DNA of 64,000 nt from Syncephalis plumigaleata. Lineage: Eukaryota > Zoopagomycota > Zoopagomycetes > Zoopagales > Piptocephalidaceae. The stretch is from assembly GCA_025201365.1 (NCBI GenBank), contig JAIXMF010000003.1, positions 1,302,001 to 1,366,000 of the forward strand, written 5' to 3'. The notes beneath the pieces were generated by a model that saw nothing but the letters and a program-made list of their open reading frames with translations, had not been told where the DNA came from and did no database searches. This document shows, piece by piece, positions 46,709 to 55,620 of the stretch. How positions within the stretch are numbered: the stretch's first letter is position 1; each line of letters begins with the position of its first letter. A program made the position numbers and the translations under genes.

Positions 46709-47404
46709 TATAAATAAATCAACAATGTAGAATGGAGCTTAGGGGAAGAAGGAGAAAGAAAAGTAATCTATTGATTTGAAAACATAGAGTGGTTCAAATC
46801 AATAGGTAAAAGAAAAAGAAAAATAACACAAACAAATTTGTTAATCATTGATTGATGTGGTATACTGAAAAGATGATGATGATGTGTAGATTCAGACAAT
46901 TAATAGGACACACGTTTACGCGCTATGGCAGACATTAACAATGACAAGTCAGCGCATATCTCATTGTTTAATTAGTATCGAGTAAATGTATATCTGTAAT
47001 CAATCAATGAATCGTGCTATCATACTGATAGATACTAGTAGTAGTCATTGTAGATTAGGTTAAAGTGTCTAGATATGATCAATTCGATTGCGTATCTACT
47101 GTTCAATATTCATATGATTGACATGAACAATTGCAACCTGTTTGATGTTCATTAGGACAAAGACGACATTCATGCATGATAGCATCATTCAGAAGCAATT
47201 ATTGGATATGTGATGATATCGATTTGTCTATTCTGCAGGGCATTGTTGTATTACGCCTATTCCACCTATAAATAAACAATGCTAATCGATTCATCTTATC
47301 ATCATCATCAGGTGTGTCTACTCTTTTTATTCTATTCCATACTCATTACTCCATTTCGTTTGTTTGTTTGTTTGTTTTTTCTCTTCCATTAGGACAATAT
47401 CAAC
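46709..47404. other. Divergent promoter region of RPB8 and gene C
   Basis: About 700 bp, AT-rich, without a coding gene. It contains the TATA box of gene C at 47267-47273, a GTTT run near 47358-47378 and, just before the C start, TTCCATTAGGACAATATCAA, which matches the leader of gene B (TTCCACTAGGCCAACATCAA). Confidence 0.6.
47267..47273 (+). promoter_or_regulatory. TATA box of gene C
   Basis: TATAAAT in the context CCACCTATAAATAAAC, 138 bp upstream of the C start codon, at the same relative place and context as in gene B. Confidence 0.65.
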
Positions 47405-50400
47405 ATGGAATCATCTGCTGATAACAATAATAATAATAGCCAGCTTATAGTCAATGCTACAACATCCGTATCATCAAATTCCCTGGTATTTCTATCATCA
47501 TCATATCATCGATACTAGTCAACATACTAATCGTAATACTACTATCTAATGGTCTTTCTAATGACAATCAATAGATGGTAAGCCTATATCGTATGACATT
47601 GATTGCGATACTGATGATGATGTCACATATGATGCTGTCAATCATAGCTGGTGAGTTAAACAACGAGTAAGGATGACATCTATCGTGTTGACTGGAATGT
47701 AAATCAAATCATATGTCGCTATTATAGAAGCAGACGTAAGTTGATATTCTGTCTAAATAAACATACAACGTACTAATTGCAATACTCGTATGATAGGAGG
47801 TGAGTTGTGAATCACGATGATACTGTGTCATACGCTCATTGAAATGTGGCAATCGATTCCCGTATGATTATATGCATAGGAACCGTAAGCTACTAGTATC
47901 ATTGTAATGTGCCATTTGATTCACGTATGATTGCATGTATTAGTGGGTAAGCGAGCACTCGTTGAATGTGGCATTCGATTCACCGATGATGACGCGTAAT
48001 AGATTGTAAGTGGGCGGTATTCTGATTGCAGTATACGTCATACTAATTGCAATGGCACAATTACTTCACTTGTCATTCCACACACACACACACCACACAC
48101 ACACATACATGACAGTATGTAGGTGATCATTTCGATCATAGCATACAATGTGCTCATTACAAGTTGACATGTCATGATACGTGTACGATGACCTGTAACA
48201 GGATGTAAGTTGCTAGTCTAGCATCATCGTATAATGTACTACTAACAACAACAACAATCATCATTCTCTTCGCATATGATTGCACTAGTATGTAAGTGGA
48301 CATTTCCATACTAATGCATGACGTGTTAATAGCAATGCATCACACACATATACATATATACGTGATAGATTGTAAGAAGTTAGCATTCCAGTCTTACTAG
48401 TTGATGTACTCATTACCCTATGGCATACAATTCACATATGATTACGAGTAATAGTATGTAAGTGATCATCAGTGCAGTGTGCGATCGGTTAATTACAAGT
48501 GATTGATGATTCACGTATGCTTCATGTAACAGAGGGTAACTAGACATTCCTATCGTGATATGTGATGTGTTAATTGAAATGAGGAACATGGTTCATGATG
48601 GATGATTACACGGCATAGACTGTAGGTTGACATTCCAGTGTCAGTATACAGCATACTAATCATAGTATTTATTATTATTACGAATAATAGGAGGCAAGCC
48701 ATTATGATGACTATAGAATACGGTATACTAATTATAGCATGATGCATGATTGACTTGTAACAACACATGTAGAAACAAGTAAGCTAACATCCAATAACAA
48801 TCACAATAATCATAATGGATGACATACTAAGTGAAATGCAACATACAATTCATATACGTGTGTGTGTGTATGATGATTACACGACATAGACGGTAAGTTA
48901 ACACGTGGACTACAATCCCAAATTGTAGCTCACCTATAACTATGGAATACAATAGGCCGTAAGTTATTATTTCGATTGAAGCATATGAGACATTAATTGG
49001 AGTGTGGAATACAATCCACGTACTATCACGTACAACAGAAGGTAAACTAGCATTTAATGACAATAGACAGTGCACTAATTGTAATGTGGCACATGATTTG
49101 TATACGATTATGCACAGCGAATAGTAAGCTAGTACTATAATGACAATAGATAATATACTAATCGGAGTGTCGCACATGATTTGTATATGAATACGTATAG
49201 CAAATAGTAAGCTATTACTATGATGACAATAAGTGATGTGTTAATTGTTGCGTGGTATACGTATCTTGTATGCTTATAAATGGCAGAAAGTGAGTTAGGA
49301 TGTCAATTGTAGCAGGCAACGAATTAACTTGACATATAATTTCCGTATGCTTACACATGACAGACTGTAGGTTGTCATATAGATTGTAGCAAACAATAAA
49401 TTAATAGTGATGTGGCATACGATTTATGTATGATTATGGACGATAGAAAGTGAGTTAGCACGTTGGCAACAGTATACGATGGACTTATCATAATGCACCG
49501 TACAATTATCGTATAATCACACGAAACAGACAGTAAGTTAGCATTCTGGTTTTACCATGCGATGAACTAATTGTAAATTGACGTATGATTTGCCTATGAT
49601 TATGAATGGTAGCGAGTAAGTTAGCACGATGATTACAGCATTCAATCGTCCAACTGTAATTAACATATGACTGCTTATAATTATGCATGATAGACGGTAA
49701 GCTAACATGATGATTATGGATTTAATAAATTAACCATATTGTGATACTCAATTCCCATACAATTGTATGGGACAGACGGTAAGCCAACGGATTATTGGAG
49801 CATACGGTAAATTAATAGGACACTTAATACACGTATGGTTACGTACGATAGACGGTAAGTCGAAATATGGATTGCAACTTATGATGGACTAATATAGCAT
49901 GGAATCCACGTACGATTATGCATGACAGAAGGTCAGCTAGCACGCCAATTGTAGCACGTGAAGTCGTTAAAATTTAACATATGACTTTTGATTATGCATG
50001 ACAGTTTGTAAGTTAGCATGTCGATTAGTGGAGGGTATGATGGTTCAATTGTAATTAATATATAACCTATTTATGTTTGTATACGACAGGAGGTAAGCTT
50101 ACATACTAAAGACGTCATGCAATGAACTAATCGTACTGCGATACTTAATTTTTATACGATTGTATGGAATAGACGGTAAGCCAATATGCCGATTGCAGCA
50201 TACGATAGACTAATATGATTCGTAATGCACGTATGCTTATGCATGGCAGGCTGTAAGTTAGTAGCTCAATTGCAGCACACGACAGCCAAATTATAATTAA
50301 CATGTGACTTGTTTATGATTACATATTATAGAAAGTAGGCTAGCGTATTGATTATGAATTTAATGAGCTAATCACATTGCGATATTCGATCTCCATATGA

Positions 50401-53400
50401 TTGTATGCGACAGGTCGTAAGCTAATACACCAGTGGCGATATACCACAAATTAACAAGATACTTAATACGCATATGATTATTCATGATAGCCGGTAGGTT
50501 GGCGTATCGGTTACCGCACACGATGGACTAATCGTAATGTGATATATGTGATTCATGTATTATTATTATTGTGAATTATAGGCTGTAAGTCAACAGTGGG
50601 GTTGCAGTGTATGACAGGCTGATTATAACATACGATTTCTATATGTTTATGCATTGTAGTATGTAAGTTAATAGAGGGGTTGTAGCGTATGACAGGCTGA
50701 TTATAACATACGATTTCTATATGTTTATGACTTATAGGCTGTAAGTTGAAATAGTAATAGCAGCATGCAGTGGACTGATAATGGTGCACCGTACAATTCT
50801 CATGTACTTACACGTTACAGGAGGTAAATTGGTACACTGATTTTACTATGCAATGGACTAATAGTGAATTGAATACAACCCCATATGACTATGCATGGTA
50901 GTGGGTAAGTTGAATGGTAGTTACAGCATACGGTGGTCTAATTATAATTAACATACGGCCCGCTTACGATTACACATTACAGATAGTAAGTTAGCATATT
51001 GATCATGGCGCGCAATGCACTAATCATATTGTGACACTCGATTTTATGCGATTATACATGACAGGAAGTAAGTCAATGTGCGATTATAGCGTGCTATAAA
51101 CTTGAACTAATGGTAGGATGACATATGATTCCCATAGATTTATGAATCGGAGGATGTGAGTTAGCATAGGTTACAACATACGGTGAACTAATATGACATT
51201 TAATACACGTATGCTTACACGTGATAGGAGGTAAATTATCTAGTCGATTGCAGCATACAGCGAAGTAATTAAAATGCTACGGCTTTTGTATGATTATGAA
51301 TGACAGGAGGTAAACTAGCATCCCAGTTAATTTACATAACATATTAATCGTATTGCGGTATACTAATCATAATACGATATGTGCTTGTACCATTATCATA
51401 GCAAGTAAGTTGATATCCGAATGATAATGTATCATGCACTCATTACAATGGAATATATAGCCCTCGTATAATCATGCACCGGAAGCAGTAAGTTTCATCG
51501 TTTGATTTGGTCAAGCATCGTGTAAAGCTAATCCACTGATGTATGGTCTAGTTGAAAGAAGCGAATCAACATGTAAGTTGATGTCACGATTACAATCTAC
51601 GGTATACTAATTGAGTATGACAAATGATTGCTGTATTTCCTAGTTGAAGAAGCGAATCAACATGTAAGTTGATGTCACGATTACAATCTACGGTATACTA
51701 ATCGGAATATCACAAATGATTACCGTATGGCCGCATGATAGCTTGTAAGCTGAACGTGTCAGCTAGTAGACATGAAGCATTAACCATAGTGTGACATACA
51801 ATCCCATATGATCATGGATACTAGGATGTAAGCTAGCATTGTTAACATTAATACATCGATCTAATTGCAATGTGGTAAACAACTTGCGTGTGATTACATA
51901 TAACAGCTTGTAAGTGGGCATTGTAATCACAGCATGCGGTGTACTGATTGCATTATGACACATGATTCACGTATGGTTGTATGTGGTAGTTTGTAAGTTT
52001 ATTATTCTTGTTACGACATACGAGACATTAACTGGAATGGGACACTCAATCCACGTATGATTATGCGCATCAGGGAGTAAGTCAGCATTCATGTTGTAAT
52101 ATGATATTGATAGCTGATAGTAATTTGGTATACCATTCATATATGTGCATGTGTGTGATAATAGGCCGTAAGCTAGCATTCTAATGGCAATTTGACGATG
52201 GACTAATAATCTAATGACGTGGTGTACACCCACAAATAATCATGATATAGATGGTAAGAAAGTCAACCTATTCATTGGAAAGTCTAGTCGCTAACAGCAG
52301 TATGATATCTCATTCGTATATGTTTACGTGTCATAGGCAGTAAGTGACATTCGAATGCTTCGTATGGTAGATTGATTGCAGTATGATGGTATACGTTTCA
52401 TGTATGGCCACATTCTATAGTTTGTAAGTGGGCATTTTGATTGTAATGTAACATACAACTCACCTATGATTATGTGTGATAGAGGTAAGCAGGCATTCTA
52501 TCCCGGTATACGACATGCTAATGGCAATGTATGGCATACGATCCATGCATGGTCATGTATGATAGAAGAAGGTAGGTAGCATTCTATTGCACGTATTCCC
52601 ACTAATTGCAATACGGGATACGATCCATGTCTATGTGATTGCGTATGATAGCAAGTAAGTTGACGTATTGTTGCCGTGTATGTCGTGCTAACAACAACAT
52701 CGTCATGTCATATGATTGGCATATAACTATTGAACAGAAGGTAAACTAGCATTCGATCAGAATAGACGATGTGCTCATTGTAATGCAAACACATTCTGTG
52801 CACTTCTATACGATAGGATGTAAGTCGATATGCTGTTGCATTCTATGATGCACTAATCACAAGACAACATACGATCACATTTGATTACGTAGAATAAAGG
52901 GCAAGTGGACATTTCAATGGCAATTTGCAATACGCTAATTACATTGCGGCATTCAATTCCCATATGATTGTGAATGACAGGAGGCAAGTTGGCATTTCTA
53001 ATGACAATCTATGACGTGCTAATTGCAATGTACGCCATATGAATCGTGTATACTCGCGTATAACAGCATGTAAGCGAGCACTTTTACTTGCAATATGTAG
53101 CATGCTAATGACGATATGTGGCATACAATTCACGTATTACCGGATTAACAGAAGGCAAGCCAGTGATTTGATCGTGATATGCCGTGTGCTAATGGCAATA
53201 CGACATGCAATCCATGCATAATCACATACAACAGGAGGCAAGTCAATGGATTGATGACAAGCTATGCTATGCTAAATGCAATACGAGTTGACTAATATAC
53301 GATAATGGGCAATAGAAAGTAAGCTATCATCTCGACTACAATGGATGATTCATTGATAGCAACATGTAACATGGCTCATTCACAATGGCACAATACAGGA

Positions 53401-54030
53401 TGTAAGTCAAAAGATGCATAGTCACGATGCATGATGTACGACTAATCGATGTGTGATATGCAATCCGTACAATCATATCGAATAGCAAGTAAGCTGGTAT
53501 TTCCGATGATCGTGTATGATCACTCAACCATAATGTGCTACTCGATCCATGTGGATTGTAAATAATAATAATAATAGGAAGTAAGTGGGCATGTCAATCA
53601 ATGTATATGCATTACTCATTGTAATGTGACATTTTCTCCACGTATGCTGACATACATCAGATTGTAAGCTATCTTTTCGATTGCCATAGACTATACACTG
53701 ATTACAATCAATATAAATACGATATGCGTATGATTATATGATAGCTTGTAAGTGGACAGTATGACGATAACAAATACCGCATTAATTGTAATGGAATACA
53801 CGTCAATTGTTAAGACATCTTGAGGAATGGTAAGGCATAATCCATCATAATCATACCATACTAATCCATTATATTAGAGCAAGACAAGGACATATCAAGT
53901 AGATATTATAGGTATTCAAGTCAAGAATGTATTGATGCAAGACCCCATTTAGTATCCATACTATTCAAGTCATTATTCCTTGGATCAAGAAATATATCTA
54001 CAAGATCATTCAATCATTTATTGAATAAAT
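47405..54030 (+). CDS. Gene C: giant micro-exon gene with about 77 tiny internal exons
   Basis: The start codon follows a leader homologous to gene B. Exon 1 (47405-47485) encodes MESSADNNNNNSQLIVNATT plus seven residues. By reading every YAG-(short)-GTRAG junction I find 77 internal exons between 47575 and 53829. Sixty-five are exactly 3 nt (first ATG 47575-47577, then CTG 47648-47650; last CTT 53745-53747). Others are 6 nt (five cases), 5 nt (47880-47884, 53825-53829), 2 nt (52483-52484), 1 nt (52900), about 8 nt (47728-47735) and three linked exons at 51486-51663. None of the 65 codon-size exons is a stop. Taken as single codons in phase 0, they give W-I-Y-D-Y-I-Y-R-T-E and so on, and the frame ends at a TGA spanning the last junction, where A and B also stop. 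The 8- and 5-nt exons near the 5' end leave the frame one base off, unresolved. The final exon starts about 53878. No function is known. Confidence 0.75.
47486..53877 (+). repeat. Tandem array of diverged intron/3-nt-exon units
   Basis: About 78 units averaging 83 bp. A typical unit is GTAAGTTAGCAT, a spacer with GCATACGATG, ACTAATTGTAATG (branch site), CATACGATTCACGTATG (hairpin), ATTATGCATGACAG, then the 3-nt exon. Splice-site, branch-site and exon-length features are far better kept than the rest of the unit, so the units are old but splicing appears constrained. Some neighbours are almost identical (50581-50660 with 50661-50735; 51552-51618 with 51644-51709), showing recent unit duplication. 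Confidence 0.85.
54024..54029 (+). terminator. Poly(A) signal of gene C
   Basis: AATAAA in the last exon's 3' UTR. About 150 bp around it (53880-54030) match the end of gene B almost base for base, with a shorter match to the end of gene A. Confidence 0.7.
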
Positions 54031-54040
54031 ATGTCGTATT

Positions 54041-54390
54041 CTAAGCATTAAAAATTATGGATGATGCCATTGACTTTAAAAATCAAGTAGATTAGACGTA
54101 TTGCGCTTTTCTTTCTTGAATCTAAATAATCCAAGACAAGCAAGTACCGTATAATTACTACGAGACAGATCATTTGAAGACATATTTTCTGAATTGCTCC
54201 ATCGAGAAACGTCAATTGCATAGTTTTTTTACTTCAATCACTGCATGTTTATATGACTCGTATTGTTATATTGCCACGAGAGTGTAATTGTCATTAGTTA
54301 ATGTAACAAAATCAATAAACATAAACACTAAAATGAACTATTTATCAATGATTTATAAAATGCATAGGAATATCATCATCGTCTTGCCCG
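54041..54390. other. Convergent spacer between gene C and the desaturase
   Basis: AT-rich, no gene seen; carries the desaturase 3' UTR on the minus strand. Confidence 0.5.
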
Positions 54391-55620
54391 TTATATCGCC
54401 TGCTGTTGCTGTGCTTGCTGTTGCTGCTCTCGGGCCATTCGTCTTGCTGTCTTGTGCGCTAGTTCCGTACGACCCACTCGACTTTGTGGTCCGAATGCCG
54501 GATCCATAATGAATCGCCATAATACCATCCACCACGATGTGTGATACGCTAGCGTGTCATAATATTCGGGAGCAATACGACGTACTGCCGGTAAACGTGA
54601 CCAAGGAACGTGAGCAAAGTCGTGATGTTCGTTATGGTAGCCGATATTCATAAATACTCGATTACCACTACCGTAGTACGAGTAGGTCTCCTGGCCATCG
54701 TTAAACGTATAATGCTCCTGGATAAAGTGGGCAGCACCCGGGTGTAGTGAGTAGCCCATCCACAGACTGAGGAACAAATAGAATAAGCCGCGCCAACCGC
54801 AAAAGTAAACGATAAGCGCATCGGTGCAAATGGTCCAGGCCCAGTTGTACTTTTCCCATTCAGATAGCGCTTTACCTTGAGCAGCACCGCGCACCACGTA
54901 CATTACTGGGTAGATGAGCACCCAGATGAACTTTGTAAGCATGTTGCCGCGGATGAGACGCACCTCCCAGTCCATAGGCAAGTCGGGATCACGACCGAAC
55001 ACGCCTTGATAGGTGTGATGCTCAAGATGATAGCGACGGAATGACATGGCGATTGGTACGGGGATGCCGATATTGGCCACTAGGGCGCAGAATCGATTCA
55101 TCCCCGGACTAGCCGAGGCTAGATTGTGAGTGCATTCGTGGAGGATCACGCCATATAGTGCCGTGGCTGTTCCACCAATAATATAGCTGAATACGAGCAT
55201 CGACCAATGATAGTCGACGAGAATGCGGCCGAAAACAAAGGCGAAGAATGTTTGAATGAAAGCAGCGAAAAATGTAACGTAAAGCGTGCTCACATCGTAA
55301 CCATACAGATTGATTAATTCCGGATGATCCTGTAGGATTTGACGCTTTCGCTTAAAGTGCGGCTCATCCAAGTCGTCCTCGGCGAAATGGTCGTCGGTAT
55401 AGGGGATGGAACGCTCCCAATCACCTAGATAGAGCGGGTAGCGACGATCAAAAGCGATAGTTATGCCGGCACGCTGCTTATCATCGAGTGACAGCACGGG
55501 AGAAGCGACGAGTTCGGGCGAGCAAGGAATGGACGTGGCAACGGTGCAAGAAGACGCACCACCACCACCACCACTAGTCTGAGAGTGCTGCTCATCGGTA
55601 CGATTGAGCGGTGGTGACAT
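54391..55620 (-). CDS. DES1: Sphingolipid delta-4 desaturase (DES1 family)
   Basis: Intronless frame of 409 residues. It is a membrane di-iron desaturase introducing the 4,5-double bond of ceramide long-chain bases in the ER. An N-terminal lipid-desaturase region is recognisable (FAEDDLDEPHFKRKRQIL). The three histidine boxes are present: HECTH, RRYHLEHHTYQG and GYHNEHHDFAHVPWSRLP. The hydrophobic segments lie between them in the expected order. The C-terminus is a Gln-rich run. The start is the upstream ATG giving MSPPLNRTDEQ; the first 50 or so residues are Ser/Gly-rich and poorly conserved, so a later start is possible. Confidence 0.95.
   Translation of the reverse strand: MSPPLNRTDEQHSQTSGGGGGASSCTVATSIPCSPELVASPVLSLDDKQRAGITIAFDRRYPLYLGDWERSIPYTDDHFAEDDLDEPHFKRKRQILQDHPELINLYGYDVSTLYVTFFAAFIQTFFAFVFGRILVDYHWSMLVFSYIIGGTATALYGVILHECTHNLASASPGMNRFCALVANIGIPVPIAMSFRRYHLEHHTYQGVFGRDPDLPMDWEVRLIRGNMLTKFIWVLIYPVMYVVRGAAQGKALSEWEKYNWAWTICTDALIVYFCGWRGLFYLFLSLWMGYSLHPGAAHFIQEHYTFNDGQETYSYYGSGNRVFMNIGYHNEHHDFAHVPWSRLPAVRRIAPEYYDTLAYHTSWWMVLWRFIMDPAFGPQSRVGRTELAHKTARRMAREQQQQAQQQQAI

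Follow-up and report, generated by a model that had tools for sequence, protein, structure and literature searches.

The window array and its family

The DNA considered here, called the window, is a 64,000-nucleotide stretch of the Syncephalis plumigaleata genome (GenBank assembly GCA_025201365.1, contig JAIXMF010000003.1, positions 1,302,001 to 1,366,000), which holds an array of small, regularly spaced units at 47405–54030 on the plus strand. Far from standing alone, the array gene belongs to a family dispersed through the genome, in which a short protein very probably arises by splicing of exon 1 to dozens of exons of one codon each. The window copy is designated W and other loci in the same genome L plus a number, with the ending sp where the array gene starts with a signal-peptide exon; contigs are given as C plus a number.

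A program count over the plus strand of 47405–54030 gives 57 YAG-N(k)-G[TC]RRG pairs at k = 3 and 0–6 at every other k from 0 to 30, which bears out a first-pass annotation of the same DNA in that three-nucleotide spacing is commoner than other lengths. The minus strand has one such pair at k = 3, and the remaining 57 kb of the window has 4–18 per k, both strands alike. In a dynamic-programming parse anchored at exon 1, W has 76 internal exons, 64 of which are exactly 3 nt long (75 and 63 in an alternative parse); the arrangement described in the first-pass annotation stands, but not its exact numbers, i.e. 77 internal exons with 65 of 3 nt. The period it gave, about 83 bp, agrees with the median donor-to-donor distance of 83 bp (interquartile range 79.5–85). 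U2-type features are present, including GTAAG... donors, few GC donors, YAG acceptors and a CTAAY-like branch motif, the latter at the expected interval in 65 of 75 units. Exon lengths are divisible by three in 71 of 76 cases in W, and in 73 of 75 in the sister copy L001. The repeated unit is strongly diverged, since neighbouring introns in W average only 49% identity and all pairs 46%; Tandem Repeats Finder calls short stretches within the array. An Rfam scan of the window at gathering scores gave no match. The idea that a conserved RNA hairpin lies between the branch site and the acceptor was rejected, RNAalifold predicting zero pairs on 52 W introns; the longest stems between these sites are slightly longer than in shuffled sequence.

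The same spacing is abundant elsewhere in the genome. The two-unit pattern GTAAG-N65..90-YAG-NNN-GTAAG has 2,641 matches genome-wide (1424 + 1217), compared with 230 (111 + 119) for the reversed control. With four bases between the units there are 71 matches (41 + 30) versus 291 reversed (143 + 148), and with six bases 98 + 107 versus 114 + 117. The 13 parsed genes contain 524 three-nucleotide exons per 291 matches of the two-unit pattern, from which the genome is roughly estimated to hold ~4,300 one-codon exons spread over about a hundred arrays, haplotype duplicates included. A dispersed repeat starting GTAAGTAGTATCATTTACAGCGCA surfaced with the six-base control pattern (C1:574109, C1:1617310, C1:2509398 and elsewhere); by eye it is unrelated to the arrays.

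The 5' end of W has 34 matches in the genome, 27 of them near the full query (W included), one cut by a contig end and six partial, which need not be separate loci, because small contigs may be alternative haplotypes. At least four upstream classes meet the common unit at one point, 47321 in W (and its counterparts in L010–L023 and L025–L030); one of these, class A, is present in 10 of 16 aligned copies, with a different region in the other six. The array-bearing units may have come to lie behind different promoters either as a mobile unit or by gene conversion. The common unit of W and L001 ends soon after the polyadenylation signal.

The family extends to genes with a different first exon. 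Five of the six C1 arrays read besides W (L002–L005 and L007) open with a signal-peptide exon (MKFSAVIAIAVAVVALTSLVAVEA...RR, by eye) and have the same 3' untranslated region (UTR) as the window gene. The sixth, L006 (C1:2253500-2260000), has about five micro-exons, a different signal peptide and a different 3' end, and is possibly an early or independent form of the array. Signal-peptide first exons number 136 at E ≤ 0.001 among the best 150 of 163 candidates, and some are in intronless genes; for the common 3' UTR there are 231 first-look candidates, 40 of which were scored. In a protein search with one protein per class, all named matches are from S. plumigaleata, and one match is unnamed.

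Reading frames, intronless relatives and protein models

In the sister copy L001, exon 1 and 75 internal exons, 64 of them of 3 nt, form a single open frame until a TGA that arises across the junction of the penultimate and last exons. Exon 1 ends in phase 1, the third exon (8, 5 or 2 nt, depending on which of three in-phase acceptors is used) moves the chain to phase 0, the exons after it measure 3, 6, 21 or 27 nt, and close to the end one of 8 nt sets phase 2. L022 has the same plan, with 72 three-nucleotide exons. In L029sp, 78 of the 82 internal exons are 3 nt long; the gene encodes 117 residues and has its stop in exon 82. In frame-blind parses of 14 genes, six (L001, L022, L002sp, L004sp, L029sp and L046) keep an open frame that ends at a stop among the last exons; L007sp is open up to its last exons under a parse that penalises stops. 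Among the 524 three-nucleotide exons of the 13 genes, many of which are paralogous and so not independent, there are 0 stop codons versus 16.8 expected from position-specific composition. A locus parsed without a first exon, L031 (C58:9000-14500), combines 31 three-nucleotide with 18 six-nucleotide exons, and its predicted peptide is rich in Pro and Arg.

The order and phase of the one-codon exons can be compared with intronless relatives. L029 and L030 (on C318 and C220) have the leader and 3' end of the family around a continuous 131-residue frame, their proteins being identical. The ends of this protein align with spliced L001 and L022, i.e. a phase-1 start, WIxDYIxR, NQHLDLFG..AF.K.QKD and the phase-2 tail SxRRxIxKFxHxE, whereas the middle aligns poorly. 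Alignment scores are 172 for spliced L001 and 181 for spliced L022, compared with maxima of 31 and 33, respectively, when all exons are shifted by 1–30 nt, and of 57 and 74 when exon order is shuffled 500 times. Four further compact relatives (L025–L028) were found, at least one with in-frame stops; L026 (C325:39000-48990) and L027 (C223:1256000-1265990) are near-identical and intronless, with an in-frame stop in the former and an insertion in the latter.

Of nine candidate intronless signal-peptide loci, six have intron-free frames of 63–88 residues when a start motif is required, and such a frame is absent in three (L038, L039 and L041). One of the six, L034, carries AVVERRAP in continuous DNA, which L029sp spells from phase-1 micro-exons, and the sequence behind its stop is what removal of the last 3' UTR intron would leave. 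L034, the only one of the six that resembles L029sp, scores 65.0 against it, where 300 shuffled orders give a mean of 26.3 and a maximum of 65.5. The other five frames score inside the range of shuffled L029sp and give no support, as expected if they descended from other arrays.

Public protein models bear on the same question. At its own locus on C362 (L046), NCBI protein P0123 (BDF22DRAFT_685685) is matched by contiguous DNA only at residues 1–33 and 69–92; elsewhere some first-exon matches extend weakly, to residue 49 at most and with 60% identity, and none of 148 matches among the best 150 of 169 candidates falls inside residues 34–68. The parse of L046 has 47 internal exons, 42 of 3 nt. 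Read in order, exon 1 and 41 of the 47 spell P0123, with exact agreement over 77 of 92 residues; of these 41 exons, 39 are single codons. The expectation in the first-pass annotation that standard annotation would miss such an array is therefore only partly right, in that for one gene most of the one-codon exons, though not all of them, are present in an NCBI model. Another model, P0122, appears to continue into the first intron. P0124 was tried as a second micro-exon test and set aside, because most of it is found in contiguous DNA that contains stops. An intronless relative corresponds to an S. plumigaleata public protein except for the first 14 residues and an added tail, and model P0121 merges the intronless gene with exon 1 of the signal-peptide gene that follows it. 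At L029 (C318:1455000-1464990) the intronless window-class gene lies ~2 kb upstream of a signal-peptide gene with 78 codon exons.

Thus the reading of the window copy as a gene with dozens of consecutive one-codon exons, as proposed in the first-pass annotation, is supported by the intronless paralogs, the absence of stops, splice-site conservation (below) and P0123, all of which are evidence from sequence.

The features of the window copy are collected in Table 1. At its end (CCC-CTG), exon 1 lacks one base that 14 of 16 copies have, L018 being likewise short. In open copies the phase-setting exon brings the chain out of phase 1 into phase 0, and by eye the intronless paralog corresponds to the 5-nt choice. 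The WIYDYIYR exons are homologous to WIQDYIVR in the intronless paralogs, and the last ten of the 3' one-codon exons are read in phase 2 in open copies. A sphingolipid desaturase gene, 91% identical to the Syncephalis fuscata enzyme, adjoins the array on the minus strand (54391–55620).

Table 1. Positions of features in and around the window copy (window coordinates)
Feature	Position	Strand	Remark
TATAAATA box-like motif in class A upstream region	47267..47274	+	in 10/16 aligned copies; putative promoter function
5' leader common to copies; start of the unit joined by differing upstream sequences	47321..47404	+	from copy comparison
Exon 1 (ATG; MESSADNNNNNSQ...), donor GTATTT	47405..47485	+	
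Array of ~77 introns of one repeat family (GTAAGT...CTAAT...YAG), most of them 70-89 nt long, with 76 tiny exons between	47486..53814	+	
Phase-setting exon with three in-phase acceptors (AAGCAGAC: 8, 5 or 2 nt)	47734..47735	+	
Exon GAACC, 5 nt versus 6 nt in 14/16 copies; frame-breaking single-base deletion	47880..47884	+	
Eight one-codon exons TGG ATT TAT GAT TAT ATT TAT AGG = W I Y D Y I Y R	47944..48535	+	
Array middle, scattered L001 matches only; recent single-unit duplication inside	49039..51404	+	
3' one-codon exons (CTT GAT CTT TTT GGA GCC ATG GCA ...), homologous to HLDLFGAAAFEKRQKDRSVRRRIMKFFHIEE of intronless paralog	51742..53747	+	
Exon AG, 2 nt; GAG in sister copy, i.e. single-base deletion	52483..52484	+	
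Penultimate exon, 15 nt	53815..53829	+	placed via L001 comparison
Last exon / 3' UTR, common with signal-peptide genes	53878..54050	+	
AATAAA polyadenylation-like signal near end of common unit	54024..54029	+	putative function

Sequence change and competing explanations

Comparison of W with L001 shows mismatches at 7.3% of intron positions (216/2957), but at 2.5% of the first six donor bases (7/276), 3.5% of the branch hexamer (8/228) and none of the last three acceptor bases (0/138); that the units have diverged strongly while their splice sites are kept, as the first-pass annotation had it, thus holds. Over 16 copies, including L018, which is poorly aligned beyond the first units (282 singleton differences), diversity (pi) is 0.043 at donors and 0.053 at acceptors, both below the 0.088 of introns. 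Four exons, namely ATG, TGG and the first of each of ATT and GAT, show no change in any of the 16 copies.

Several observations weigh against the proposed gene structure. The window copy itself is out of frame, in that exons 1, 5, 51 and 61 are each one base short relative to the sister or family form. Its alignment with L001 has 30 one-base gaps in W and 2 in L001, and in the first 1.7 kb W has seven singleton one-base deletions, compared with 0–2 in 14 of the 16 copies and five in L020; the frame is broken because at least four of the missing bases fall in exons, and the loss may reflect real decay or residual sequencing error. Under the frame-blind parses, six of the 14 genes (W, L003sp, L005sp, L007sp, L019 and L020) have a frame break or early stop, and in two more, L021 and L023, the parsed array is free of stops but its end is ambiguous. 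The three-nucleotide exons differ between W and L001 at 6.4% of positions (7/109), close to the value for introns, and 7 of 37 codons are changed, all non-synonymously, two of them at alignment edges. Over the 16 copies, pi is higher in three-nucleotide exons (0.119) than in introns, and that of the branch hexamer (0.101) shows it to be no more conserved than introns in this set. P0123 omits 6 of the 47 predicted L046 exons, five of which are multiples of 3, enters the last intron, and may be a gene-finder product rather than based on a transcript. The effector role considered below has two supports, i.e. the signal peptide and hypervariability. Because exons vary like introns, or more, constraint on the encoded residues outside the conserved ends is weak; splice-site ends and parts of the protein ends are kept, with much of the rest free, or driven, to change.

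That exon bases change about as introns do between W and L001, and faster over the 16 copies, would fit removal of the whole array, either in one piece as a long intron or through a chain of dead-end splicing events, with the three-nucleotide exons absent from messenger RNA (mRNA) and the splice sites kept merely to purge the repeat; joining exon 1 straight to the end would also work. This explanation is highly improbable, given that the intronless paralogs hold the three-nucleotide codons in order and in the right phase, that stops are absent from the 524 exons, that P0123 includes its 39 one-codon exons, and that the four invariant exons are the same in all 16 copies. Chance, or satellite DNA in the form of an 83-bp tandem repeat with splice-like motifs, is scarcely credible: the introns do belong to one repeat family and tandem repeats are called in short stretches, but units that are only about half identical have kept their splice sites, the genome-wide excess is at three-nucleotide spacing with none at four, and the arrays have a coding first exon before them and, among those parsed from exon 1, a common 3' end after in every case except L006.

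Two further alternatives accept the one-codon exons and concern their origin or use. Introner-like elements could have been inserted between nearly every codon of ancestral intronless genes, and the single repeat family of introns resembles that of introners (in passages of PMC9860276); however, insertion would have no cause to keep a three-nucleotide step over 60–80 events and three phases, and duplications of intron-plus-codon blocks are observed directly, making this order of events unlikely. A tree of the 3' UTRs of 21 common 3' ends, in which the five intronless rows are not grouped together, helps neither direction of origin, because it is almost unresolved (0 of 18 inner branches starred). 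Variable use of the exons, those of 3n nt being skippable in frame so that one locus would yield many peptides, in the manner of the micro-exon genes (MEGs) described below, is possible, although we lean against it. It would account for the six exons missing from P0123, five of them multiples of 3, and for the triple in-phase acceptor at exon 3, but the former point loses force if P0123 comes from a gene finder. The account in which exon 1 and the one-codon exons are spliced in order into mRNA is the one pursued in the following.

Intron units, putatively secreted relatives and known systems

The introns of five compared arrays, drawn from both subfamilies, have a similar consensus and form one repeat family. 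In L029sp, introns 60–65 and 75–80, as well as 23–25 and 34–36, are block duplicates with 99–100% identity, and these introns precede repeated codons for IASDF and GLA. Intron identity declines little with distance in four of the five arrays (in L007sp it falls from 0.61 to 0.43), so that duplication of neighbours explains just part of the arrays.

In the proposed mechanism, the one-codon exons would be separated by the ~80-nt U2-type introns of the common family, and each intron would be recognised as a unit (intron definition) and removed, leaving the codons in order in mRNA. As the exons are too short for two splicing complexes to be accommodated at once, removal would have to be stepwise. 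The multiplying unit would be one intron plus one codon, gained by tandem or block duplication, probably through unequal exchange between similar introns; the two blocks in L029sp are direct examples, and their extension to the arrays in general is likely. With such a unit, whole codons would be gained or lost without breaking the frame. The intronless relatives were most likely copied from spliced mRNA.

Many relatives have, by eye, a signal-peptide exon ending in a dibasic site, followed by mature peptides that are unrelated to each other; the window subfamily has an Asn-rich start and no obvious signal peptide. Among six signal-peptide genes, exon 1 DNA is 80–94% identical, whereas for the mature peptides 14 of 15 pairs do not exceed the 5% level of shuffled sequence. 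A conserved first exon with a hypervariable mature peptide is known from other effector families. Pfam at the curated cut-off gave no match among six proteins, and PDB none under E 0.3 for the one protein searched. Syncephalis species are described as mycoparasites in passages of PMC6784888, and the candidate role of the signal-peptide relatives is most likely that of rapidly diversifying secreted effectors or toxins directed against the host fungus.

The nearest known systems are the MEGs of Schistosoma and the bicycle genes of aphids. According to passages of PMC10526429, Schistosoma has 35 MEGs, with 10–20 exons of 6–81 bp (also given as 3–81), mostly 15 bp, and introns of 0.1–5 kb. The S. 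plumigaleata arrays resemble these in belonging to a parasite, in having many tiny exons mostly divisible by three, and in forming a multigene family that is hard to annotate. MEG products are secreted and variable; the larger S. plumigaleata subfamily has a signal-peptide-like first exon by eye, the window subfamily does not. The arrays differ in that they come from a fungus, in having 64–78 single-codon exons per gene and in having ~80-nt introns of one repeat family; 64 of the 76 internal exons of W, at 3 nt, lie outside the 6–81 bp, mostly 15, of that description. Bicycle genes have small internal exons, almost all in phase 2, with over 100 micro-exons in megacycle (PMC9168663, in part). 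They are similar in being large families of micro-exon genes for effectors, candidate ones in S. plumigaleata, in which structure is kept while sequence changes, but the three-nucleotide exons of S. plumigaleata run in phase 1, then 0, then 2, and the bicycle-gene passages of that paper make no mention of one-codon exons.

As with introners, many introns of one repeat family occur in one genome, but here they are in tandem within one gene family (compared with passages of PMC9860276, in the main text of which a term search finds neither 'Syncephalis' nor 'Zoopag-'). Isolated 1-nt exons in otherwise normal genes, in Arabidopsis and in Fusarium CYP621A (passages of PMC4674806 and PMC12940212), show that the spliceosome can include tiny exons, whereas S. 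plumigaleata has runs of them. Term searches of PMC6784888 and PMC10386755, on zygomycete and uncultured fungal genomes, find neither 'intron' nor 'exon'. Among the matches listed in the open-licence literature, PMC7865070 is the only paper naming S. plumigaleata, and none describes one-codon exons in runs or micro-exons in Syncephalis.

With 60–80 one-codon exons per protein, the minimal exon size would turn from a rare exception into the norm of a family, and how the spliceosome treats exons too short for two complexes would become testable. In the array genes exon shuffling would proceed residue by residue, and these genes point to a poorly annotated class of proteins in a parasitic fungus, many with signal peptides. 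More tentatively, and with the balance tipping slightly to the other side, they may amount to a genome-wide codon-exon system, in which duplication, exchange and skipping all act on an intron together with its codon, and secreted proteins are varied one residue at a time through intron recombination, perhaps also splicing, with no loss of frame; such a system would act as an evolvability device in the arms race between S. plumigaleata and its host fungus.

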